Positions 26,137-46,585 of a stretch of DNA of 64,000 nucleotides are shown in pieces (position 1 is the stretch's first letter; each line of letters begins with the position of its first letter). The stretch covers positions 1-64,000 of the forward strand of contig WBMZ01006409.1 in assembly GCA_013400975.1 (NCBI GenBank). Direction: 5' to 3'. Below the pieces are notes generated by a model that searched no databases, was not told where the DNA came from, and saw only the letters and a list, made by a program, of their open reading frames with translations. The position numbers and the translations under genes are program-made. Origin of the DNA: Atrichornis clamosus. Its lineage: Eukaryota > Chordata > Aves > Passeriformes > Menuridae.

Positions 26137-26612
26137 CTAAAACCGTGTACTGCCCAACTGCGATTTGTCATCGGACACGTCACAGTTTGTCACGTTTTTA
26201 ACGCTCTCCTCTGCCGCTGGCTCCTCCATAGGGATTTCAATGTCATTTTTCCTTGAGCCATTGCCTTTATGCCGTGCAGCAAGGCAGCTATCACTTTTCT
26301 CCATGTAGCCATTAGTTTTAGCCAGGGAGGGCTCCCGCTGGCTGCAGCACAGCTGAGAGTCACAAGCTTTGGAGATGCAGGGCGAGCTGCACAGTAGCTG
26401 TGAGGTCTTGTGGTCAACGTACTCGGGCTGGATGGTCACAGAATGGACTCCTGCTTCGTGGAAAACCTTCCGTATTTTGTAAGCAGCATCTTGGTAGTCA
26501 GTAGGGGCTTGGCACTTGATATGGAGAGTGGCAATATTCTTCCCACTTGCAAGCTCCCAAACGTGCACCTCATGAAGGCTGCTAACCCCTGGTACACGAG
26601 CTAGTCTGTCAG
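26137..26612 (-). CDS. SLC30A10: SLC30A10 coding exon 4 (C-terminal domain) and stop
   Basis: 476 bp including the TAG stop at 26139-26137. It encodes the ferredoxin-like cytosolic domain (VSSLHEVHVWELASGKNIA, then TIQPEYVD) and the variable Cys-rich and acidic tail ending LGSTRF. The acceptor is GTCTTCCAG. Confidence 0.96.
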
Positions 26613-29600: not shown

Positions 29601-32108
29601 AATTCCACAACACAAGAATTTTTTGCCAAGAATTTATGAAGTACGTATAGCTATGCAATTAACTTAAAAGGAAAAATACAGAATTGAATCAGAATTTTAA
29701 AAGATATATCTGTAGCATTGGCTAGGGAAGCAAGGAATATTTGTGAAGACAAAAATAGATTTTGCAATGTTGACGTACTAAAGTAGCAAGTAAAAAATTT
29801 CTTTTAAAAATAAAAGATGACAAGAATTTTAAAGTAACCGACACAAAACTCCTTATTCTTCAGACATTTCTGAAAGTTTCCAGCGTCATTACACCTAAGC
29901 ACTCTGGTTGAGGCAAGCAAGGCCTTCTCTAAAGTAATTGGTTTCTTATTCCTCCCCCCTCCAGCCCTGAGTGTGACAGTTAGCTTATCCTGCTCCGATA
30001 ATCTTACCACTATAATGCCACAATATCCAGTGACACCAACTTCTAGACATTCAGGCAAGTGTTGTGGCTCTAGCACACGGTTTGATTTTCCAAAGTATCT
30101 TCCCTTACAGACACATTTGTGTAGCTCTGAAAAGCTTTTTGAAAGGCAGGTAGACACACACATGCACAAAAAAACCCCAGCAAACCCAGCTGCCTGACTG
30201 TCACACTGACCTCTCAAGCTGAATTCATGCAATACAAACTTACACAACCTTGGGGGAATATCAGATGCTGATAGGTGACCATAAGAAGCCTGAAACTACT
30301 ATTCTGATTCAGGTTTCTGACCGTCCTTTCCTTGGGGACAAACTCAATATTTCATATACTCAAAGACATCTGGTTTTGGCTCTGCACAGAGCAGGTACCT
30401 AAACGTGTGGGCATACAAACACCTACACAGACAGGGAGAGACACGTGGGTAATTTATTCCTAGGAGTAGCTATACTGTTTCACTCCACAGGTTCCCAGGG
30501 ATCTGCCAAATTACAACATAGGAAGGGCTCATCCTGTCACAGACTGTCCCAGGGACGGGTTCACAGTTCAAGGACCTGGAAAAATACCATGCTGAAGTAC
30601 AAGTTTCAGAACCTTTTTCCTTATGCTGACAACAAAACATTATCAAGCTTGGGATTTAAAAGAATTTGTTTTCTTCCCAAAAACATTTTAAAGTTGAAAA
30701 CTACTCAACTGCTACAGCAGTGACACTCAAAGATGCACCTCATATCTGCCTGTGTTACCTTCCTGTAAAGCCTCTAGTGACTTGAACTTAGTGCAATAAG
30801 GTTTGCATCCTTTCCAAATGTTCAGCTGCATCCTTCTAAAGAATAAAAATCAAAATGTGAGCACTCTCAGAGCCAAATCAGCACAACACTATTTTGTTAT
30901 TAACTATGCTCTTTCATACAACCAAAACTTTCAGCTAAAGATAACTGGGTCCAATTACAGAGAAGAGTTGTGGGCTTTTGCTCTCTTTCTTACTGGTAAT
31001 TGTGTGCATGTGTGTGTGTAAATCTGAAATGGAAACCAGAAAGTGTTTGAAATTAATATAACATTAGCAGTATACTATTATGCCATACCTCTAATGTTCA
31101 AGGCTTCAGATTTTTTCTCTTTTTTCTTCTCAGACCCCTCTTCAGGGCTTTTTAGGTCATTTGGTGAATCACCTGCATTCAAAGAAGAAACGCTGTGTTG
31201 TGTATAAGTTCTACAAACAGAAAAAACATCAACCTTCTCAAAACCAACTTATTTCAAAGATGACAAGAAAAAAAACAAGCCAAAGCATTTCCCATGCAGC
31301 TCTCTGAGCAACGCCTCCTTCCCCCATCCCGAGGGGACGCCCAGCAGAGCGGTGTAAAGTACAAGGTGAAAGAGGAGGCGGGTGTCTGAGCAAGCTTAGT
31401 GAAATCCCCAGGGTCCACGGGTAGCCTTGGGGCTCTGAAAGGGCCCAGAGGATTGGGCCAAGAGCTCGGCGGGTCCCGAGGGAAAACGAGAGGGAGAGAA
31501 GGGATGCGGAAAGGGGAGAGGGATGCGGAAGGGTGGGAGGGGTGGGGAGAGATGCAGGACACGAGGGGAAGGCGAAGATGCAGCCGAAAGGCACCTGCTT
31601 CATCCACCTCCCCATTCGGGGTGCCACCGGGCACATCCCGCAGCGCGGCGACCGCGGCCGGCGGGGTGGACGGGCGTCGCCGGCGGCAGCAGGCGCCCCA
31701 GTCCTGGAAGACGAGGAGCCCCACGACGTTGACGGCGAGGCCGAGGGTGCCGACGATGAGCACCAGCTGGGCGTCGTCTATGGGCTGGGGTCGGGCGAGG
31801 CGGAGGACGGAGTCCACGAGGATGGTGAAGCAGAGGGCGGTGAGGAAGACGGCGTTGCTGAGCGCTCCCACCGCCTCGGCGCGGCTGTAGCCGTAGGTGG
31901 CGCGGGGACCGCGGCGGCTGCGGCGGGCGATGCGCCCGGTGGAGAGCCCCACGCACAGGGAGATGAGGTCCGACAGCATGTTGAAGGAGTCGGACACCAG
32001 CGCGATGGAGTTGCCCAGGTAGCCGGACACCAGCTCGGCCACGAAGAAGCCGACCGTGAGCACCAGCATGAAGATGAGGCGGCACGTCTTGCCCGAGTAC
32101 CGCCCCAT
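26137..32108 (-). CDS. SLC30A10: SLC30A10, manganese exporter (ZnT10), four coding exons
   Basis: The CDS joins 32108-31595, 31172-31089, 27606-27370 and 26612-26137, giving 436 aa; every intron is GT-AG and phase 1. SLC30A10 is a cation-diffusion-facilitator protein that exports Mn(II) across the plasma membrane. The start MGRYSGKTCRL is the family N-terminus and sits in a near-perfect Kozak context. TM1-TM4 span about residues 10-135. TM2 has Asn43 and Asp47 in SDSFNMLSD, the Asn marking the Mn-type site; TM4 has Asn127. TM5 has His204 and Asp208 in LLHVMGDALG, then TM6 (about 237-257) and a cytosolic domain containing HEVHVWEL, ending in a Cys-rich tail with CSSPCISKACDSQLCC. The TM4-TM5 loop lacks a His-rich zinc loop and is about 40 residues shorter than I recall for human (485 aa total). 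It lies downstream of EPRS1 on the same strand, as in other vertebrates. Identification is firm; borders are hand-set. Confidence 0.97.
26613..27369 (-). other. SLC30A10: SLC30A10 intron 3
   Basis: A 757-bp intron with a consensus donor and acceptor and no other feature seen. Confidence 0.9.
27370..27606 (-). CDS. SLC30A10: SLC30A10 coding exon 3 (TM5-TM6)
   Basis: 237 bp, phase 1 in and out. It encodes GVLLHVMGDALGS with the TM5 HxxxD metal motif, the short extracellular loop CNWQCYIDPSL, TM6, and the start of the cytosolic domain up to GVNMELL. The acceptor is TTTGTTTCAG and the donor is a consensus GTAAGT. Confidence 0.97.
27607..31088 (-). other. SLC30A10: SLC30A10 intron 2
   Basis: About 3.5 kb between the loop exon and the TM5-TM6 exon. 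I recognise no repeat or further exon. A 147-codon minus frame at 29804-30247 has no recognisable domain. Confidence 0.8.
31089..31172 (-). CDS. SLC30A10: SLC30A10 coding exon 2 (cytosolic loop)
   Basis: 84 bp, phase 1 in and out, coding the loop from GDSPNDLKSPEEG to KSEALNIR. The last residues match the loop just before TM5 in human SLC30A10. The acceptor ends TTTGAATGCAG and the donor is GAG|GTATGG. The intron separating it from exon 1 is only 422 bp. Confidence 0.95.
31595..32108 (-). CDS. SLC30A10: SLC30A10 coding exon 1 (TM1-TM4)
   Basis: 514 bp, coding residues 1-171 plus one base. The exon is very GC-rich and contains the TM2 metal-site residues Asn43 and Asp47 and the TM4 residue Asn127. 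The donor reads GCAG|GTGCCT. The frame stays open upstream to an ATG at 32282, but family conservation begins at 32108. Confidence 0.96.
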
Positions 32109-32400
32109 GGCGGCCGTGCGCTGCCGGCCGGTCCCGCTCCGCGTTAGCGCCGGGACATCGCCGCCGCCCGCCCGCAATAAGTGCGGCCGGCCCGGCCCGC
32201 ACCGCGCCGCCCCGCCCGAGGGCACCGCCCCGCCCCGCCCCGGGCCCCGCGCAGCGACCACGGGGGACACAAAAGCACCCAAACACGGAATAAATAGGAA
32301 ATAAATGGGCCGAGCGGAGGAGCGGAGTCGGCGCGGCGGCAGGCGAAGGACCCTCGCCAGCAGGCACAGCTACCCAAGGCTGTTCTGTCTGCGCTCCTAC
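31600..32400 (-). promoter_or_regulatory. SLC30A10: CpG island and promoter region of SLC30A10
   Basis: Dense CpG sequence covers exon 1 and about 250 bp upstream of the ATG at 32108. The 5' flank contains overlapping GC boxes on the plus strand at about 32225-32243, typical Sp1-type sites. An AT-rich patch with TATTTATT on the minus strand lies at about 32285-32305, just upstream. The start of transcription cannot be placed from sequence alone. Confidence 0.7.
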
Positions 32401-32548
32401 CACCCAGAAACGGTGAAGTTCCAGTGACGGATCCAATAATTATCCTCCTTTGGTGCTTCATTGGTGGCGTAAATGACAAACCAAAGGACAGAGTGCCATC
32501 TACTGAGCCAGCTCATTTCCAGCCTCCAGCCTTTAAACAGGTGTGTCA

Positions 32549-33158
32549 AAAAGCCAAGCGAATCCAGGGCTGCATCCAAAGCAGAAGTGGCCAGAAGGTT
32601 GAAGGCGGTAATTCTGCCCCTCTCCTCTGCTCTGGTGAGACCCCACCTGCAGTGTTGCCTCCAGCTCTGGTGCCACCAACATGAGAAGGACATGGAACTG
32701 TTGGAACAAATCCAGAGGAGGCCTCAAAGTTGATAAGAGGATTGGAGCACCTCCGCTACAAAGACAGGCTGGGAAAGTGGGGGCTGTGCAGCCTGGAGGA
32801 GAGAAGATTGCCTGGAGAACTCAACCTTCCAGTATCTGAAGGGGGGCTACAGGAAAGCGGGAGAGGCATTCTTCATCAGGAACTGTAGTGATAAATCAAG
32901 GAATAATGGGCACAAACCGAAAGCAGGGAAAATTAGGCTAGACATTAGAAAAAAATTCTTTACTGTGAGGGTGATAAGATACTGGAAGAGGTTGCCCAGG
33001 GAGGTCGTGGATGCCCCATCCATGGAAGTGTTCAAGTCCAGGTTGCATGGGAGTCTGAACAACCTGGTCTAGTGGAAAGTGTCCCTGCCCATGGCACGGG
33101 GTTGGAACTAGGTGACTTTTAAGCTCCCTTCCAACCCTTAACATTCTATGATTCTATT
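32549..33158 (+). repeat. CR1 LINE 3' fragment next to the SLC30A10 promoter
   Basis: About 610 bp of plus-orientation CR1, from AATCCAGGGCTGCATCCAAA to the tail CATTCTATGATTCTATT. Its truncated 5' end lies about 440 bp upstream of the SLC30A10 start codon. It is not coding. Confidence 0.9.
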
Positions 33159-35069
33159 AAAATAGTACCTTAATGTGCAGAAATCTATCACTACCCTACA
33201 ACAAAAATAATTTCATGCATTTTTTTAACCTACAGGATAGTCTACAAGAACCAGAATAAGGGAGTAAACCTCTATCTTATATTTGTAGATGTTTTGTTGC
33301 TGTTGTTATTATGACAGTTCTTGCGAAAATGACAGCCCTGATTGCAAATGGAAAAAAGGACAGAGCTGGACCGCTAATAGAACATTTCAAAGTGATGAAA
33401 ATAACTAAATAATCAAAGGAGGTGCTGTGAAATTAGGTCATCCTCAACTATGGGATTCTCAATATCAGAACAGGGCCCAAAAATAATAAATAAAATACAT
33501 AAGATCTTAAAGAAAATGATGTCCATAAAACGTTATCCTGTGAAAGTCTGGAGCACTTCAGCTATTCCAGAGGCAAAACACTGCTGAGGTACTGCTTCAG
33601 TAGCTACCATTCACACTGAAGTGCCACATCACACGTTTCACCACTCTTGACAAAGCACCCATTGCTGTCAGATTATGAACCAGCAAGGCCAGGGAACACT
33701 CTTTTGTCCCACCTACCAAAGGTAGTGTTCTCTACATCCAGAAATTCCTTAAAGAACTCAGAAATTTCCTCTTTGTTCTAACTTTAAAGAAACTGCATTG
33801 TTAGCGTTGTAGATTTTCAGCCCTTGCTTGAATATATCTTTCACACGAGGCCTCTCCATTTCACCTAATTCTGTGCACTCAATCAAAGCCTGTCTCACAC
33901 AGAACCCAAGATGTGTCTTAGCCTCTGGAGTGGACGTGTGTGGCTATTCAGGAGATGGTCTCCCCTGCATGAAATTAACACACACAACTGCCAATTAACC
34001 AGAGATTCTCATGCATGCCCTTCACACATTCAATACCCTTCAATATGCAAATTAACAAATGCATAAAAATAAATTTATTGAAATGAACCTTACCATAAAG
34101 ACAAAAACAATTGTGGGAGCAGATAGAGTAACTTATATCAACACACATTTCAGCTCTATAATTGCAACTACCAACATAACATAAGAGATTTTTAATGGTT
34201 GTGAGAATCAAAAGCAATGTGACATAGGTGGAACAAAGAGAAGAAAAATATGAGTTATAGCAGCAAGTTAAGTAGTCAGATACAAATTTTAAAATGACAG
34301 ACTGTATCTTCTTTACTATAATTAATGATAGAAAATTCTGCCTCTGGCACTTCACTTACAATAAAAAAAGATAACACTCTCAAGCCCAGCTAATTGCACC
34401 TGCACAGACATGAAAAGGATTTCCAGTGGTTTTTATTTTAGGAAGACATATAATACAGTAGCTGAAACACCATTAATCCTCCTGTGCAAAATATACATCA
34501 ATTCTCCTTGGAAAAAAAAAAATCTCATAGCCCTGAACTCACTTCAAAACATAAAAATATCACAGTTCCTTTGAAGAAATAGCGTTAAAAATACTGTCTT
34601 CAGCAAATAAGGCTGTGACTAAGTCCTCTGACATGGAGCACAATTACAGCTGACTCTCTGAAGGTGTCAGAAACAGTATATGTTCAGAGACTCAGCTCTG
34701 ACACTGTATCTGCTGATCCAGTGATTATTCCTTCTGTCAAACTCACACATCTCAATCTGCTTCTCACGACACAGCATCAGCCAGAAAGCCACACACTGAC
34801 ACAGGAACGGAGCAGTGCCTGCTGGGTTAGACCACAGATCCATCTCTGAACTATTTCCAGCTCCTACCTACAGCTTTTGATGATGAGAGAACCAAACCTG
34901 CACTGTCTTCAAAACGCAGGGAAGCCACAGATACAGAGGCGCAGCAAAATTCCTGACTGACTCCTTTACTCCTTTCCCTGTACTGCCTCACATTTGATTC
35001 ACTTTTGGTTTAGCACACATTTTTATGGAATTGATCATTCTCTCCTGCTTTCTGTTTCTCATCTTCAGT

Positions 35070-35667
35070 CACTGTTTCAACCCAGCTGGCAACTAAGTGC
35101 CACAGAGCAGCTCACTAAGTCTCACCCACCTCCAGTGGGGTAGGGAGGAGAATCAGAAAAAAGGTAAAAAACCCTTATGGTTTGAGATAAGAACAGTTTA
35201 ATAACTGAGAGAAATTAAAATATAACACTTATACTATTAATAACAATAAAATTTGTAATTAAAAAAGAAAAAGAGAGCCAGATTGATAAACCCCGAGAGA
35301 AAAAAGCGATGCTCAGCGCAGTTTCTCACCACCCTCTGACTGATGCTGAGCTCGTCCCTCAGCAGCAATTGGTGGCTCCCGGCCAACTCCCCTCAGTTTA
35401 TGTCCTGAGCATTATTTTCTATGGCATGGAATATCTCTTTGGGTCCAATTCAGGTCCTGGTTGTCCCGGCTGTGCTCCCTCATGGCTTCTTGTGCAGCTC
35501 CTTGCTGGCAGAGCATGGGAAACTGGAAAGTCCTTGGATTAGAGTAAGCACTGCTCAGGAATGACCATCACATCACTGTGTTATCAATATTATTCTCATA
35601 CTGAATCCAAAGTGCAGCACTGTACCAGTTTTTATGAAGAAAATTAACTATCCCAGCCAAACCCAGG
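35070..35667 (-). mobile_element. Solo LTR relic of an avian endogenous retrovirus
   Basis: On the minus strand it begins GGTTTGGCTGGGATAGTTAA and ends CAGCTGGGTTGAAACA, with an AT-rich stretch and ATTAAA signal near the 3' end, the pattern of a widespread bird LTR as I recall it. No internal coding region is attached. Ends are approximate. Confidence 0.7.
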
Positions 35668-36841
35668 ATGTCTTCTGATCAGTTCCTTATCCACACAAGG
35701 GCCTTTCCCTTTGCACTGTGGTTTGGCAATCCAAGCTTTTTCTCACCTCATTATGCATACAAACTTCCCTGTCCTCTTCATCCAGGTATCACAATCACTT
35801 CAAGACAAACGACTCCTAAAACTGCCAAAGCTGCACTAATCATTCTTGTTCAATAAGTTGTTGCTTTCAATAACATGAAAAATTAATTTAGGTCAATCTT
35901 CAGAATAAAGTGTATTTTCCCTGTAGTTCTTTTGCACCTTGATCTTCTTCCACATAGTCTAAAAGAAAGTCATGATCCTACACGTGGGAGTCACTGATGC
36001 TGTTACCAGTGTTTCCACTCAGGCTCTTCCCCCTTTCTGGGCATCACCATTCTGCCTCCACAAATCCACTTGCAGCATCAGAACATTTGGTCTCAAATCC
36101 TTTTAGAAAGGGACTATGCTCATGATTGCTTTTCAGTGTGCTTGGCATCCTTGTGTGTTTTACACTGACTGCACACATTCCACAATATAATGTTATGTTT
36201 CACTTATTCATCCAGTACTGAGGTTGCCTGAACAAGCTACGTATTATTAAAAAAACCAATCGGCCTAAATATTCCAGGCCCTCTGTTTCTAATTATCCTG
36301 AATTGGAACCTTCTTAGGAGGTTCTGAAAAGGTTGTTCAGCACCTTAGTTTTCTGAATCATTTGCCAACTTTAGTTTCAGCAACAATACTGCTAGAAAAG
36401 CTGCCGTTTCATCATCCTAATCAGGAAGAGAAACTGGTACAATTCTTAAGAACTCACAAAATTATTACAAACAAGATAACTTTCCTTCTGAACTCCAAAG
36501 ATTCAAAGCACTCCTGTAAGCTTCAAGATCTCTGTGTACCAAGTTTTCAAAATGCTCAACATATCAATTTTTAACACTTAGCCCTTGGCAGCCAGACCCT
36601 GTAACCAAGATGCTGTCCCCACCTGTGGCCGTAAGGGATGCTTAGGTAACAGTAAAAGCAGTATACATTATACTTTCCCTTAATACTCTCATCCTTCAAG
36701 TATTTTCAGGCCAAGTGAGTTTCTGAGCTAGATACTTATGTTTAGTAGACCTCAATGGATTTTTCTTTCATGTACTAGTCCAGCCTCTCACTCACCAGTG
36801 GACATTTCAACATCAACTGGAAGCAAGCTCCACATGTCACT

Positions 36842-38180
36842 TTTAATGGTGTGAGGAATCATAGCATAGCTTAGTTTGGAACCCCCTTGCCAAGGGCAGG
36901 AACACCTTCCACTAAACCAGGTTAGTCAAAATCCCATTCAAACTGGCTTCCAGGGATGGGGCATCCACAATTTCTCTGGACAATGTGCTCCTGTGCCTCG
37001 CCACCTTCACAGCGAAGAATTTCTTCCTGATATCGAATGGTTGTGGTTTTGCTAGACCTGGTTTTTGGTAGCGGGGGGGCTGCAGGGGTGGCTTCTGTGA
37101 GAAACTACTAGAAGCCCGCCCATCATGTCCTGCAGGGCCAATGTCTGGCTGGCTGCAAAGATGGACATGCCGCAGGCCAATTAGAAGTGGTAACGCCTCT
37201 GTGATAACATATTTAAGAAGGAATTCAAAACAATCCTGGTTGCGCAGTTTTAAATCCAGCCAGGGAGGTGGGGGGTGAGTGAGGAGATGTGAGCTAAAAA
37301 AAACAACATGGAGAAGACACCAAACCACTTCGGAAGAATAGTGGGAGGAGGTGCAGGATATTCCCCTGCAGCTGGTGGTGAGACCACGGTGAGATGGCAT
37401 GTCCCCGCCTTGTAGCCCATGGAGGACCACAGGGGTGCAGAAACCCACCTGCAGATGTTAGAGCAGGGGGATGCTTGTAAAGGCCTGCAGCCTGTGGAGG
37501 AGTGACCCACGCCACAGCAGTGTGAGGGCCGCTGTTGCCCGTGGGATGGACTGATGTTGCAGCAGTTAGCAGAAGGCTGCTTGTGAGATGGACTTTCTAA
37601 AGGGAGTAGTTCCTGAAGAACACTGCCTTCCAGAGGGGACCCCACCATCCAGCAGGGGAAGATTCCAATCCTTGAATTATTATGAAGTGACCTAAACCCC
37701 ATCCTTAATTTTCTGTCTCCCTGCGTTGTTTGGGTAGGAGGTAAAGCTGGGAGGAGGGTGTGGGGGAGGGGAAGAAGGTGTTTTCCAACGCGCATATTAC
37801 TTCTCATTTTTTCTTTTCTATTAGTTTTAGTAAAATAAATTAACTCTTATATCTCTTAAGATAAAGCCTCTTTCAAATCATTTGAATCATAGACCTTGTG
37901 GACGCTTTGAATTTTTATTTCTCTCCTCTGTTCAGCTGCGAAGAGTGAACCTGGGTAGTTCCTGGCCTCTGGCCAGGCTCAAACCAAAACACTAATCTAA
38001 ACCTGCCCTCTTTCAGTTTAAACTCTTCCCCCCTGTGCTGTCACATGTGGCCTTGTAAAAAGCCCCTCTCCTGCTCTCTTGTAGGCCCCTTTAGACAATG
38101 GAATTTGCTTTAAGGTGTCCCCTGAGCCTTCCCTTCTCCAGGCTGAACAACCTCAACTACCTCAGCCTGCCACCTCTTTC
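36842..38180 (-). repeat. CR1 LINE split by an LTR insertion
   Basis: The antisense CR1 occupies 36842-37036 and resumes at about 37992-38180. The two halves read on from each other (end-of-ORF2 region GAATTTCTTCCTGATATCGA, then TAATCTAAACCTGCCCTCTT). The intervening roughly 955 bp is a later insertion. Confidence 0.85.
37037..37991 (+). mobile_element. Solo LTR of an avian endogenous retrovirus, inserted in CR1
   Basis: About 955 bp beginning TGGTTGTGGTTTTGC and ending CCAGGCTCAAACCAAAACA, with a possible 5-bp target duplication (CGAAT / CTAAT, decayed). A TATA-like ATATTTAAG lies at about 37209-37217 and AATAAA at 37834-37839, both in plus orientation as expected for an LTR. It resembles a common bird ERV LTR from memory. 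No internal retroviral coding region is present. Confidence 0.7.
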
Positions 38181-41100
38181 TCCTTGTTTTGAACCTGAGT
38201 CCTGCTAGTTTCACTCAATATATTCTTGTTCTTGTTTCAGAGGACAGGACAAATATTCAATGCCTGCTGACCCTGCCTATGTCACTCTTGGTTTTGCAGA
38301 CTTGTGTCACATTCTCCTTAAGTTATTAATTTCCAAGGTGACAGGTAGAAATCTACTTAGTTCCTTCCAGAGAAAGCATGACCAGCCCTTGGAAATAGGG
38401 TATCTCTATAATTATGAAATATGACAACAATAACAGCAGTAATGATGGTCATTTTCTTCTACTGCTGAATGAAAATAAGGTCACATGTAGCCTCATGCTG
38501 CTGTAGAATTTGGATAGCTAAAAGAATCACGAAAATAAGGAACTGAACATAAATATTATCATTACGAGAGATCTCTCTTCATCCTGCTTATCAAAGTCCT
38601 GTCAGAGATTACTTGTTAAGCCATCATAAAAATTGTTTACAAGAGACATTTCAGGAAGGACCTGGAAGAAACTAGAGAATGAAGGACACCAACGACCACA
38701 CACTGCTGTACATAACAAAGGAGTTATGCCTCTTTAAGACTGTGGGGAGGAAAATATTACATTTGCACTAAAAAGCTGAGGCTGACCCTGGGCACAGGAC
38801 ATTTAAAGACAGCATCCCTAGCCTGAAATGCAATGGGTGGCTGTGAGAGGGCCTCTAAGCTTCAATCCAAGAAGACATGGTGACAGTCTTGCTACCGTGA
38901 AGCTTGTGAAGCTTGTTTCTCTAAGTTAGGAATGATGGACCAAATTCATAGCAAATCTAAATGGAAACCATGTGGTTGGCTTCTGTCACAAATAACTTTG
39001 GCCACAAAATGAACCACAAAATAAACACCATCCAACAGACCAAGTTGTGGAAGGTGGTTAGTACGAGATAATTCCATTTGCAGGTGTTTTATTCCTCATT
39101 GCCAGCTCATTTGATTTGTATCTCCCTCTCACACCTGCAAGAGGAAGATGGGCTTTTTGGCATAGGCTGAAGGGGGCAATAGCTGGGAAATCATTAAGTC
39201 TGTTTCTCCCCAAGTAGCAGAAGCCTAAGACTTATCTCTCCAGCAAGACTTCAGCAATCTCAGTGAAAGCTTTATCAGTGTCCTTGGTAGAGTACAGAGG
39301 TGGATGTTTCTGGACTTTTAATCAAAACTGAGACTCTTCATGACAGTCTTGAAACTGTCCTGAGAAGAAACACTCTGCTGGTTGGACTGAGAATGTATTT
39401 TTCATGCTCTCCTAAAGTTGACTTGAACACACTGGTAGGTCTATCTGAAATGATGAACCTGTGGGATTATTTAATTCCTAGACTGGAATGTCTTCTTTTT
39501 GTTATATTTTCTTCTATTTTAGGATGGTTGCTCAGATTTTTTGTTACAAACCACCATTCCCTGCTCTTAATATCCAGCATAAAGAAATCTTTTGTATACT
39601 TTAGGACATATCCAGTCAGTCTCTGCTCCAGCACCTGGATAAAGCTTCCTGAAATATTTCAAATACTTCATAATTCACTTTTTTTTAAAGTATAGTTCTG
39701 TTATGTTTCTCATATAAATGTATGTGTGTATATATATTTATCTCTCCATATAACCTTTTCCTAGTGGGAGGAAGAACTGCACATTGAAAAGAACATGAAG
39801 AAGAGAAAGCCACTCACTGATGTCATCGTTGTAAATTGCATTGAATCCTACTGCAAAAGCTTCATTTTCTATATAGGCAGCATTTCTAAACTGAAACTGA
39901 TGCCAAAGTTATACCTGTATCAAACTCTCTGCAGAACAGTCATCCCAATAACACAACTGCAGTTAACGTACAAAACATGTTAGCCTTAAAAAACCCCATT
40001 GTATTGAAACTGTTTATGACTTTGAACTCAGTTATCTTCCAGTCCTTTTATTTCCTTACAGCTCACCACAGGTACTGTGATGTAACTCAGACAGTCTGCC
40101 AGTGCCCTTACTATGAAACTGGTTCAAGGTTGAGACCAAATGTAGATACACAAAGTTCAGCAGCAGTAGTACTGTTGGAATCTAGGTTCAGAAGGTTTAA
40201 TCTCACCTTTATGCTGTTGCATAAACCTTCCAGGGATTCTTTGCTTGCTTTACTCATAGACGTAACTTTTTCATTCTGCACTTTCCATTTTGGGCAAAAC
40301 ATAGCCCTAAAACATTTGCTTTTACTCACTTTGATGCAAAACTTTCTCATTGAAAACTAATCCTTAGATTATCTTCTGAGGTTTCTCTTAAGAGCATTCA
40401 GAATTCTGAAGAAAATGTAGAGAAGCATGTTGCTAAATAAACTTTCACAGTCTCTTCCCTTGTTATTTTAAAGACTTGGTATTAGAGCTTCACTGAATAT
40501 AAATTAACACAGACCTTGTTACCTTTGCAGTAGCTGCTCACAAGAGCTTTGGAAAAATTTGATGAGGATTATTTGCCACTGTATTAAACTAAAGAAGATC
40601 TTCAGAATATATGTGTTCAGTCTTAGGCATTTGATAAACATTTAAAATTGCTTTGACAGTATCTCTTGGCCTTTTTATTCCATTTGAGAAGACTACATCC
40701 AGCAGTGCTGTAGAAATCAAAGACATGACATCTAAATATTTAGCTGTAGAAGGTTTTGGTTACCTGCATGCCAACACATCAATACCTCTGGGATTCATGG
40801 AAACAAATGCATAAGGCACACATCCCTTCATTTATGCATATTATGTTGGCAAACACTTAGGACTGGAATGCCACAGTGCACTACTCTGGCAGCTTAAATC
40901 CTGAGGATGAGGATGTACTGTGTGAATGGAGCAACTGTCTTTTGGTAAAGTCTAGTGCTGTGCATTCAACAATCATGTGTACGAATGCAGCCAGAGGCTG
41001 AATTGGAGAGTTTAGTGAAGGGTTGGTGCTTACAGAGAAAAGTAGAGCCAACCTGTGGAAGATATCCTCAAAAGAGAGGCAGCACAAAGTAATGCTGATC

Positions 41101-41212
41101 TTGAGGAAACGCTTTTAGGCTTCTCAGGTGTGAAAAGCACAGTAAGCCAGAGGCTTCTTGTTACAGGTGTTACAGTCAGGGTTCCTTCCAATTCCTTAAA
41201 AAGGTCTCTGAG

Positions 41213-41233
41213 TCATCATCATCATCATCATCT
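41213..41233 (+). repeat. (ATC)n microsatellite
   Basis: Seven TCA/ATC units in a row, intergenic, between SLC30A10 and the duplicate first exon. Confidence 0.95.
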
Positions 41234-44200
41234 GACAAAGTCTGTCACAGTCTCAGCAGTGCATTTGAAAGAGAAGCCTATTCCAACCAGGGAACTAATT
41301 TTTCTCTTCTTGCATGCGGGTGAATTAAGTGATCATGAAATTCTTCAAACTGACAACCTGAGAAACTGTTCTGGAACTCCAATTACCAGACTATTTTTGC
41401 CACCTGCGGTATAGGTTGATGCAACTGTTGAATCAGACAGCATAGCTACAAATACAATTGTATTTTAGTACCTGCACTCTTTAGCTCACCAGGTCTTCTC
41501 TGAGAAGGTCTATGGCATTAAGATACAGATTAAGCAGCCATTTTCCCACTTATTTTGTCTATAAATTTTCTCCCTTCCCCTGGGATCAGTATGTTTCCTA
41601 CAACAGATGTGAAAATTTAGTTCAGACTATTACAGCAACAGAGTCTTCCCAAGGCACCCAGCCAGTTAAGGTGAGTGCCTCTCTTCATTCACACATGTAT
41701 ACCCCCAAATCTCTCCTACTTACAAAAGCCTGGAGAAAAGATATGCCTCTCAGTAAGCCTCAGAATAAGTAAACTCATTCTGCACAGGTCCAGAAGGAGA
41801 AAGAAGGTATGTTTTCCATTTGCCTGACTGGTAGCTTACATGCCACCTCTTATCTGAGAGGCAGGCTGCTGGTGCACACTGAAATAGGAGAATTAAGATC
41901 CAACAGCGATACCACGCAAAAGCTCACACGCATACCTGCTAAATTGCACAAACAGGAACATTAAAATCAAGCCACCTGGCTGCTAACACAGAATGTGTTT
42001 TATTTAATGAGCTATGAGCTGTGCAAAGACCATGAGGTCTCTCGTAAGGAAATGAGAGCTGTTTCTCCCAGTCTCAGATATTTTGTGAGTGGCTCAGTGT
42101 CAGTTGGGTTGGGCTGGGTGACATCTTTATTTCCTACTTCCCTCCCATCTCCTTGTACAGATCACAAGACGACAGAACAAATGTTTTTTGCATGTTAAAG
42201 CTTTACTTGTTTTCTCCAGACAAACAAGAAAGAATTACTGTAATCAGACTAATGTGGTGCTTTTAAAACTGTGGTCCCTCTAGCAGTTTAAAACTGTGTA
42301 TAAGTGAGTAGAGAAAATTACACTGACCTAGATGGACAGGAAGAATCAGACTTCTGTGTGCAGTAAAACAGGCTTCTGTATTTTTATGACTGATTATAAA
42401 GGGCATGGCCAGTATGAAAATTGTCTGGTATTTATTATAAGACCATGATGTTTGTTATTTTCAGCTGCTTGCTACTTTGCCATATTCTTCATCTTTGTGC
42501 CAAAACTTCCTGCATAAGATACAAACCTCGAAACTGTCAGAAAACTCAGGCTGAAAGTGCCCTGTAATTTCCAACAGCAAGAAAAGTCTTTTGTGAATTT
42601 CAACTTATGGGAAAAGTTTCTTAGGGAAACTTTAATATATTCTATGTTTTAGCAAGTGTTTCCTGGATTTCAAGTCAAAGCACTAACTAATCTGTGATCC
42701 CTCTGCTACAGATGACCCGGCTGGCTCAAGTTCCCCCACACAGCATTTCCTTTAGAGAGTGCAGAAATATTTTTATACCTGTAGCAGCTGCTCAGGGCAA
42801 GCATCAAAAGAAAGAACAGGGGTACATCCTCCCCATACTCTTGCTGACCTCTCCTCTTAGTCCTAACATGGTGTGGGGAACTGCATGTCTGAATCAAGTG
42901 CAAAGATGGACCTAGAGCACAGAGAGACCTTAATTCAACCTGGTGGGAAGAGACAGATGCTTACAGCTGGCAGAGGGGACAGACTGAACAACTGAGACAG
43001 AGAGGAAAAGGAGAATGGCAGCAGATAAAGACTAGGGAGTAGGACACAGAGCAAAAGCGAAGCAAGAACCAGAGAAATGAAGGGTGAGGGTTTGAAGAGT
43101 AAGGGATGAGAGGCAAAACAAACCTAATCAGTGGCTCCATCTGGGTATGCAGGGACAGCAACTTGGAAAAAACACATTTATACTTGCTCCACAAGTCTAT
43201 TTGTACTAAGATGAGAACCTCAGGAGTGGATGTTGCAATGAGTTAAATGAAGAGTACAGATATAGAACAAAGGAAAAGAATGGAGAGCTGGTTTGGCATC
43301 TGTAAACACCTCACTCAGAGTCCACTGGGCTCATCACAGACACACCTCGCTCTGTTCCTGCTGTCAGCAGCCTCATGGAAACCCACCAGCTAATTCTTCC
43401 ATCCCTGATGGCAGGCCATGCAACGGAGGAATGAGATGAACTGCTGGCTCTGCTGATTAATTGTGGCACTAATACATGTGGAAGAATTTGCTGCAGAGGA
43501 TTTAGGTGCTCCCTCTGCCCTCAGCAGAAGATGCAGCACTAGACGGTGACCCACTTCCTGCATGTTTTGACGTGTGTTTTTCAAAGCAGTGCAGGCAATC
43601 ACGTACAAGAGAGAAGAGGGCTGTTTAAACCCATTCCCTACCTGGGCAACAGAGATATGTAGGCAATTGACCCCTTTCCCTGGAAAGCCTAAGAGGCAGA
43701 GTGCTGTTCTACAAATCTTTACCTTTCAGCAAACCATCACTGATGGCAGGAAAATGTCCAGGTGTCAACAAAGCTGTTGCCTAAGGACAGCTGGACTGCA
43801 CCTGCAGGACTCAGAACCCATGTCCATCTGCTTGAATTTCTGCTGGTGGCACTGATGCCCTAGAAAATTCACCTTGACTTCCAGCTCCAGAAAAGAGCAT
43901 ATTTTCCTCATATGTAGGATGACAAGAGACAGAGAGATGGACTCCCTCTTTTTTCATGTCTTTTAACATATCCTTAAAATATATATAAAGCATGTAAGTA
44001 TACTTTTCAGAGTACATCTCTCTGAGAAATAACATCTTTTGAAAGAAATGTAATAAAAATACCATTCAGATTGAATATAGAGAGAATTAGAGGGACTGTA
44101 GATTTGGTGGTGGTTTTGCGTCTCTGTTTCTGGTGTGGTGAAACTTCTCTGCTTGCAGTAGTGCCTACACGTAAGATAATGACATTTTATACTGTAGAGG

Positions 44201-44582
44201 GAATGCTCCTTTCTTCTGGAATTAATTTTATAATTCTTGCTTAGGAAAAATTTCCTCTAATTCTGAGTGGGAATTTTATTATATTTCTATCAAAAGGAAT
44301 GCTATTCCCCAGATAGCTGTACTCTGAAAAGTAGAGTTACGTTTCACATTTAAGTATATATTAAAAAACATCAACAAATCTACACACTATATTTATGGGG
44401 TGTTACAAAATTCATCCCTACTCATGCAACTTAAATTCAGTTGAAAGCAAATCAAGTTGCCAGGTATTTGGACACAAGTCTGTTGGAGGGAGAGAGATGG
44501 CTTATTCGTCCCAGAAAGTTATTAGGAGCAGGATCCTGGAAACTCAGCAAGAACATCATTTAGCTACATAGTTGCAATTAAT

Positions 44583-44638
44583 TTCAGTTAATTCCCTTAT
44601 AAGTGCTGATGTTAATTCAGTTAATTCCCTTATAAGTG
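44583..44638 (+). repeat. Exact 23-bp tandem duplication, 33-bp period
   Basis: The 23-bp segment starting TTCAGTTAATTCCC and ending TATAAGTG occurs at 44583-44605 and again at 44616-44638 without mismatches. Confidence 0.92.
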
Positions 44639-46015
44639 TTCCTCCTTCCTACTTAACCCAGAAGCACCGTTTTGGAAGCTGTCTTCCGAGAAGCCATCAT
44701 ATACAGAGGCTTTGTCAGGAAATGCTGACAGTTCCCAGCATAAAAGCCTATTTAATCCCCCATATACTTACATATCACCAGAAATTTATTCTAAGAGAAG
44801 CTCAGATTTTAAACAGTTGGGCATCTAAACAAAGAGGCACCAAAATCAGTAATGCATGTGGCTTTTAATGTTAAACACCAATTAAGTTAAAGCTTCAATA
44901 TAATCTGGAGACATCCTTAATCATGAACAGAAATATTTACCAATTATGTCCATCAGAAAACCCATTAAACACTATAATGTAAACTAACAAAATTTTTAAA
45001 TTTCTAGTTCCAAAGCCCTGTCAAGCCTAAAAGTCAAATATAAGGCTTACCTCACCTCACCTAGAGCAGTACATAACAGCAGCTGCTTTTTCAGATAGGC
45101 TCTCTCAGCTTTCCCCCCAGCACATCCAGTTAACACTTTGCAAATATATGGCTTCTATGTCAAGTGGAATATTTCTAGTTTTAAGAAATATGTTTGTATG
45201 TGTATCTAAAAACACACAGAGAGTGAAAAAGAACTCGCATGTATCTTACATCAAATAAAGTGAGATAGTTTCTGCGGGAATAAAAAACCCTGTACCAATC
45301 CCTCCTCCCAAGTGCAGAAATTTTAAAACCCTATGCTAACAAAAATAAACTGAAAGGCTAAACCTCTGTGCACCCAACAGAACCTCCTGCAAAAGATTTC
45401 TGTAGCACAGTATGCCTGTTTCTCCTCTGCATGCTCTCTCAAGCACAGGCTAAAAAGCATCAGCAAAGAAGACGTCAGCATTGTAGTCACAGTGTTTTCA
45501 GCCAGCATCCAAATATTTTCACAACATATTCCCAAATCAAGAAAGGCTAAGACTCTGCTTTTGCCCTTACCTATTATTTTGTCTCATACAAATTGTGAAC
45601 ACTGCTCAAAAGATAACCACATCTCTGATTAAAATTACAGCAGAATTACTAAAATATTGAGAGTGGAGATTGTGAGTTACTCATATTTCAGGATTAGGTG
45701 TTTTATAACAAATATCTCCTTAGGGTGGTAGCACACTTAGTCCCATGTTCGGGCAGCCAGTGGATGAGGGAGAAAATTTAACTTGCAGATCACTGTACAC
45801 TTTAGAAGGACAACACATACACTGCTTGCCTGGTGCTTACTGATAAATACATGTGATTGCTGGAAACACGCACAGGTTCAGGCATAAAAACCATCACCCT
45901 CGCTAACAAAAGAGTGAAAAAACCCATGTTTTACTTGCCCATCCCAGAGAAGCAGTAAATAGTCTCTCTAATTAAGAAGTGTAGAGGGGCAGAGCAGCTG
46001 CATGAAGTTATTTAC

Positions 46016-46460
46016 CTGTTTCAGTGTCTCCGGGGGGCCCACGGCAATAACAGCAGTCCATGAAGATAACATAGTTTAACACATTGAAGAACAGACCTGA
46101 AATCCCAATAATGAGGACGAGCAGTGCTTTCTCAGTCTTCTGAGGGTTGATAAACCTCTTGACAGCCTCAACGAAGATGCTGAACATCAGCGCGGTGGCA
46201 AAAACCGAGTTGCCAAAAGCCCCCAGCACGTCCGCCCGGCTGAAGCCAAAAGTGCTGGCCTTGTGCCACCTGATGCGGCTGAACCGGACGCCGAACAGCC
46301 CGATGATCATGGAGATCAAGTGGGAGAGAACAGCAAAGGCGTCTGAGGCTAAGGAGAGAGAATTGCCCACGTAGGCGACCGAGATCTCGGTGGCAAAAAT
46401 GGCAAGGCTCACCACGCACATGAGGATGAGCCGGCTGCTCCGGCCCGAGTAGCGGCCCAT
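46016..46460 (-). CDS. SLC30A10-like first coding exon (TM1-TM4), duplicate
   Basis: An open reading frame from an ATG at 46460 (purine at -3, G at +4) encodes 148 codons plus one base, then a donor ACAG|GTAAAT. The protein starts MGRYSGRSSRLI and aligns along its length with SLC30A10 exon 1, with one residue fewer in the TM2-TM3 loop; it predicts TM1 10-29, TM2 34-56, TM3 78-100 and TM4 112-133. Kept: Glu25, Asp40, and the TM4 Asn (126 here). Changed: the TM2 motif reads SDAFAVLSH, so the Asn43 and Asp47 positions are Ala and His. It ends with CCYCRGPPGDTETG. Splice phase 1 matches SLC30A10 exon 1, so it could join SLC30A10 exon 2 in frame. I found no exons for TM5-TM6 or a C-terminal domain nearby. 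It may be an alternative first exon, part of a tandem paralogue, or a decaying copy; the intact frame argues against simple decay. Confidence 0.88.
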
Positions 46461-46577: not shown

Positions 46578-46585
46578 CTTTTATA
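46578..46585 (-). promoter_or_regulatory. TATA box upstream of the SLC30A10-like exon
   Basis: The minus strand reads CCTATAAAAGTGGC, a strong TATA match, about 120 bp before the ATG at 46460. A start site 25-30 bp downstream would give a leader of roughly 90 nt, and that leader contains no ATG. This contrasts with the CpG-island promoter of SLC30A10. Confidence 0.6.

Follow-up and report, generated by a model that had tools for sequence, protein, structure and literature searches.

Inherited manganese excess accompanied by dystonia and liver disease results from loss of SLC30A10 (ZnT10). In the same family of CDF transporters, ZnT6 serves ZnT5 as a partner with altered metal-site residues; ZnT5 and ZnT6 are, however, the products of two genes, whereas both products of the locus described here would come from one gene with shared exons 2–4. 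The manganese site of canonical SLC30A10 (PDB 9kvx, 9kvy and 9kvz), as seen by cryo-EM, is made of D40, N127, D248 and S252, and E25 is also required, according to PMC13272668. The role of N43 is disputed there: two studies, one of them in DT40 cells, make N43 important while two others do not, and an N43H change abolished Mn export in the DT40 study (PMC13272668). Another manganese transporter gene with alternative splicing is SLC39A14, whose isoforms ZIP14A and ZIP14B differ in Mn transport and in tissue, as stated in PMC13272668 and PMC9231024. SLC39A14 belongs to a different family, however, and its alternative exons are 4 and 9; here, in contrast, it is a whole four-helix first exon that alternates.

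The DNA analysed, hereafter the window, is a stretch of 64,000 nucleotides from Atrichornis clamosus (contig WBMZ01006409.1). It carries SLC30A10 and a further first exon upstream, with the following features:

46578 to 46585, minus strand: TATAAAAG, candidate TATA box about 118 nt before the alternative ATG
46016 to 46460, minus strand: alternative first coding exon (TM1–TM4), 148 codons plus 1 nt, phase-1 end
46010 to 46018, minus strand: 5' splice site CAG/GTAAAT of the alternative exon, a good donor
31595 to 32108, minus strand: coding part of canonical SLC30A10 exon 1 (TM1–TM4, N43/D47), CpG-rich, phase-1 end
31089 to 31172, minus strand: shared exon 2 (cytosolic loop), phase 1 to phase 1, 27 codons
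27370 to 27606, minus strand: shared exon 3 (TM5–TM6; HVMGDALGS, human H244, D248 and S252)
26137 to 26612, minus strand: shared exon 4 (cytosolic dimer domain, stop codon)

The alternative exon starts with an ATG at 46460–46458 and its last base is 46016. Its frame is open, and the peptide runs from MGRYSGRSSRLILMC to GDTET; hence, the intact 148-codon exon with a phase-1 donor proposed in an earlier note on this DNA is indeed present, on the same strand as SLC30A10 exon 1 and 13.9 kb upstream of it (the note had given about 14 kb). The CDF/SLC30 membrane domain was detected in the exon with the Pfam profile Cation_efflux (PF01545; 68.2 bits, cut-off 26.6), and human SLC30A10 is its closest relative of solved structure (E 2.8e-33). 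Both values indicate a similarity far above chance. The corresponding chicken isoform scores 192.9 bits against the CDF family TIGR01297 (cut-off 82.35). No Rfam family matched at its gathering score.

The two first exons have the same splice phase (1) onto exon 2, and exons 2–4 are common to both. Splicing of the exon models yields a canonical protein of 436 residues and an alternative protein of 413 residues, in which DTETG is followed in frame by DSPND, just as the earlier note had predicted. Such splicing, and with it a 413-residue isoform, is in our judgment very likely to occur in Atrichornis clamosus. The window's exon 4 by itself falls just below the cut-off for the dimer domain ZT_dimer (PF16916; 25.6 bits, cut-off 26.7), and PF16916 is precomputed for many relatives.

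Canonical SLC30A10 shares exons 2–4 and residues E25, D40, N127, D248 and S252 with the alternative isoform. The differences lie in the first exon and probably in the promoter: the TM1–TM4 parts are about 47% identical, and N43 and D47 are replaced in the alternative isoform by A and H. The closest CDF gene elsewhere in this genome, SLC30A1 (ZnT1; 39% over the alternative exon), differs in having an H43/D47 site and a separate locus, on contig C2446.

Whether the alternative exon has downstream exons of its own was examined by tblastn of the window with exons 1–4, and with three profile HMMs (exons 1, 3 and 4; 247 relatives in each) run against six-frame, stop-to-stop pieces; exon 2, with its 27 codons, was sought by tblastn only. 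By either method, the window has two exon-1-type exons, a single exon 3 and a single exon 4. The tblastn search included the interval 32400–46000, and no copies of exons 3–4 were found there; this agrees with the earlier note, which saw no exons for TM5, TM6 or a cytosolic domain between the alternative exon and SLC30A10. In the genome (1.01 Gb, 11269 contigs), the exon-1-type matches at E ≤ 0.001 were the alternative exon, SLC30A10 exon 1 and the SLC30A1-like gene on C2446. ZnT10-type exons 3 and 4 are present once, at the SLC30A10 locus, the next best matches being again on C2446. No second ZnT10-type exon 3 or 4 was therefore detected in the window or in the genome, and missed 3' exons of a paralogue were rejected on the results of tblastn, profile HMMs and genome search.

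The same fused protein is annotated in many tetrapods, which bears out an extra first exon with shared exons 2–4. Three protein searches gave 278, 249 and 269 matches, of which the best 120 each time, judged by similarity to the alternative exon, were listed; the first used the fused protein as query, with residues 1–149 scored, and the other two used a frog and a Tupaia query. The frog Rhinophrynus supplies one of the best 120 of 278 matches and birds the other 119; among the latter are Gallus, Meleagris and Anas ("isoform X2") and Struthio ("isoform X3"). Matches listed with the frog query include Xenopus laevis isoform X2 (two records), poison frogs, Pleurodeles, Geotrypetes, squamates, turtles and marsupials, while those listed with the Tupaia query include lemurs, colobus, gibbon, macaque, cattle, pig, dog, elephant, bats and rodents. 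Annotated fused isoforms are found, therefore, in six groups: amphibians, squamates, turtles, birds, marsupials and placentals. The name "isoform X2" is given to the fused protein in Gallus, Anas acuta, Xenopus laevis, Bos indicus and Monodelphis, among the matches listed. These records are gene predictions; databases already carry the isoform.

The 253 listed proteins are a selected, related set. A direct join to exon 2 fixes how far away the exon 3 motif should be, and 215 of the 253 have it there (the sequence at the join of one of the proteins, P0014, is GDTETGDSPNDQK). Another distance is seen in 32, whose gene models have gained or lost pieces, and 6 do not contain the motif; the 38 proteins in which the plain join is not seen count against our explanation. 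In the shared part, 196 of 201 residues of the colobus isoform are the same as in human SLC30A10. In Rhinophrynus, a model of 599 residues (P0001) contains both first exons, alternative and canonical, one after the other and ahead of one set of exons 2–4. Such a fusion is probably a prediction error, yet it puts both exons in one gene; the tandem model and the colobus figure agree with two first exons on one gene.

Other peculiarities of the models are worth recording. Lizard and snake models P0134, P0135 and P0137 have about 16 extra residues, of the YFSKDSPVMSPFPAV type, between the alternative exon and exon 2. As the insert is alike in three species, it is possibly a small squamate exon; in the window, a search for an exon of this type between the alternative exon and exon 2 gave a best score of 20.3, while at least 5 of 20 shuffles reached at least 20.7, so that the window shows no sign of one. 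Four amphibian records bear the name "SLC30A10-like" (P0129 of Geotrypetes, P0124 and P0125 of Leptodactylus, P0130 of Pseudophryne), and in their species the alternative exon may belong to a complete gene of its own. In 29 of the 253 listed proteins, including P0198 of Lycaon and P0232 of Myotis, one residue is lacking before the DCC motif (VILDCC instead of VIFLDCC); the names examined were those of carnivorans and bats.

Indirect evidence for spliced transcripts comes from eight murid-like proteins (P0165, P0167, P0176, P0177, P0180, P0186, P0193 and P0240) with 94.7–95.4% identity to the Arvicanthis isoform. Their longest source contigs measure 1.6–5.6 kb and carry the source tag "lgn"; P0193 represents 55 contigs. 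A contig of 1.6 kb that encodes 417 residues has about 350 nt left over. Because contigs of this size contain full open reading frames with so little to spare, we read them as spliced transcripts, which is what they look like, retrocopies being the formal alternative. A ninth protein, P0229, reads on past the donor and is probably unspliced. Among the matches listed, no transcript-like contig of this kind came from a bird.

A tree was made with 21 first-exon sequences, 16 of them alternative exons. The 16 form one side of a branch with support 100/99, within which birds, squamates, mammals, amniotes, and frogs with the caecilian cluster as expected, and the newt stands alone. Support for the canonical group is weak (71/50). 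The stems of the alternative and SLC30A1 exons are long branches that meet, a circumstance that raised a program warning. The location of the exon and its MGRYSG start speak for an origin from SLC30A10, while the identities do not point to one source: the chicken alternative exon is 47.8% identical to the human canonical exon and 41.5% to the SLC30A1-like exon, and the human canonical exon is 49.6% identical to the latter. The exon occurs in birds and in reptiles, and also in amphibians, marsupials and placentals. Since it is found in amphibians as well as amniotes, an origin before the living tetrapods is deduced; judged by its distribution, the exon is at least as old as that group and not specific to birds. 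When chicken was compared with 13 other species, identity was 67–87% for the alternative exon, 76–91% for exon 3 and 56–94% for the core of exon 4; exon 3 surpassed the alternative exon in 12 of the 13 species, and the alternative exon surpassed the exon 4 core in 11. A level between those of exon 3 and the exon 4 core points to constraint, and we read the alternative exon as being under purifying selection.

Residues of the metal site were counted over 254 sequences, namely the 253 listed proteins and the window exon. E25 and D40 are invariant (254/254), and 250 sequences have N at the position equivalent to N127. At position 43, 237 have A, 14 have T, 2 have S and 1 has G; at position 47, 251 have H, 2 have Q (P0147 of Ochotona and P0228 of Molossus) and 1 has N (P0248 of Desmodus). 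The loss of H47 in these three genera possibly reflects relaxation or change of the isoform. The three canonical sequences compared, from human, the window and frog, have N43 and D47. The TM2 ligands of a classical zinc-type CDF protein (H or N at 43, D at 47) are hence not found in the alternative exon across the 254 sequences, while the residues of an SLC30A10-type Mn exporter (E25, D40, N127, D248 and S252) are all present in the isoform by sequence. In other words, with the alternative front half the predicted transporter retains its Mn site, whereas neither of the two ligands that TM2 contributes to the classical CDF zinc site is left; the earlier note did not mention this change. In shared exon 3, the TM5 H and D are found in 247 of the 248 listed sequences readable there (five more are unreadable), and the numbering of H244, D248 and S252 was confirmed on the 9kvx chain. 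The one exception in TM5 is the caecilian Geotrypetes (P0129), which has L instead of the histidine; at position 43 it has G. An AlphaFold model of the chicken isoform, made with 56 aligned isoforms, was poor (mean pLDDT 55, pTM 0.39); Foldseek placed SLC30A10 9kvy first (E 9e-21) but with a TM score of 0.39 and an rmsd of 9.8. Because of the quality of the model, the case for the metal site is argued from the sequence. Considering the N43H result and the key role given to residue 43 in another study, A43 might impair Mn transport.

Each first exon probably has its own promoter. The DNA of canonical exon 1 has a GC content of 0.71 and a CpG o/e of 1.01, while the CpG o/e upstream of the alternative exon is 0.32. 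For the alternative exon, a promoter is inferred from the TATA motif TATAAAAG; as the window contains six octamers of this type, with 3.0 expected, the assignment is suggestive only.

The best explanation as a whole, to which we give a probability of roughly 60%, is that SLC30A10 has two first exons and that the upstream one gives a Mn/Ca-type exporter with exchanged TM1–TM4. The part of it that concerns the two first exons has as its direct basis the exon, the splice signals, the frame, the single ZnT10-type exons 3 and 4, and the annotation of the same protein across tetrapods. Two promoters would thereby offer a choice of the front half of one transporter. The alternative exon would exchange TM1–TM4, leaving TM5, TM6 and the cytosolic dimer domain common to both isoforms; E25 and the cryo-EM Mn site (D40, N127, D248, S252) would be retained; a small residue at 43 and a histidine at 47 would alter selectivity or coupling; and a separate, restricted promoter would permit expression in other cells or conditions. 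That the alternative isoform is a Mn/Ca-type exporter changed in selectivity or coupling and used in other cells or conditions is, from its residues, an evenly balanced proposition. A broader proposal is offered tentatively, at a little under even odds: since before the living tetrapods split, promoter choice may have exchanged half of the membrane domain encoded by one gene and so yielded a second exporter that has its own metal preference or coupling (A43/H47), uses the same TM5–6 and dimer domain, and can pair with the first.

The isoform might also be made and transport nothing. Dimerising with canonical SLC30A10 through TM5–6 and the cytosolic domain, it would then tune or block the transporter, a role in keeping with the almost invariable replacement of both classical TM2 ligands in the 254 sequences and with a dimer domain encoded by shared exon 4. 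However, E25, D40 and the N127 position are kept with no obvious need for them in such a partner, and we deem this role unlikely. Lower still do we rate the idea that both isoforms work alike and that the second promoter merely adds other tissues. The retention of the reported Mn-site residues agrees with it, as does the unlike appearance of the promoters (one CpG-rich, the other CpG-poor with a TATA motif), but not the identity of about 47% between the exons of one species, the long stem, or the fixed opposite residues at 43 and 47. We expect, in this order, a changed exporter, a tuning partner and a functionally equal copy.

The earlier note had itself raised the possibility of a true paralogue with later exons missed or lost. 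The records named "SLC30A10-like" could be separate genes in some amphibians; the single exons 3 and 4 of window and genome, and the near identity of the colobus shared part to human SLC30A10, nevertheless make the upstream exon most improbable as the start of such a gene. Equally improbable is a non-functional relic of exon duplication: expression in Atrichornis clamosus rests on prediction, but the frame and donor are intact, key residues are kept in 254 of 254 sequences (listed proteins and window), and identity to chicken is at least 67% across tetrapods. Frame, conserved residues and tree led us to disfavour it.

Alternative first exons are common; the predicted exchange in SLC30A10 involves four transmembrane helices and a metal site, and is deeply conserved. 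The earlier note knew of no described system of this kind. This holds for function, as no functional study of the isoform, and no description of the alternative exon, was found in the open-access literature searched with the terms used; it does not hold for the isoform as such, already predicted in databases. If mammals generally make the second isoform, data on SLC30A10 need to be read again. Two mouse studies measured SLC30A10 mRNA with primers spanning exons 3–4, and such primers cannot separate the isoforms because exons 3–4 are common to both. If the two-isoform reading is true, studies that use exon 1 clones or exon 3–4 primers are blind to the difference. A patient homozygous for the exon 1 deletion p.Ala105_Pro107 is described in PMC3664426; if humans carry isoform 2, it should be intact in this patient and hence would not make up for isoform 1 in clearing Mn. 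The dispute on residue 43 and Mn selectivity has a ready test in the natural change at positions 43 and 47.

Elsewhere in the window, two open stretches, 32737–33072 on the plus strand and 36912–37457 on the minus strand, have a peptide of the type DIRKKFFxVxV...REVVDAPS in common. They contain an inverted match of 88 nt (74%), have no Pfam match, and are probably pieces of an interspersed repeat.
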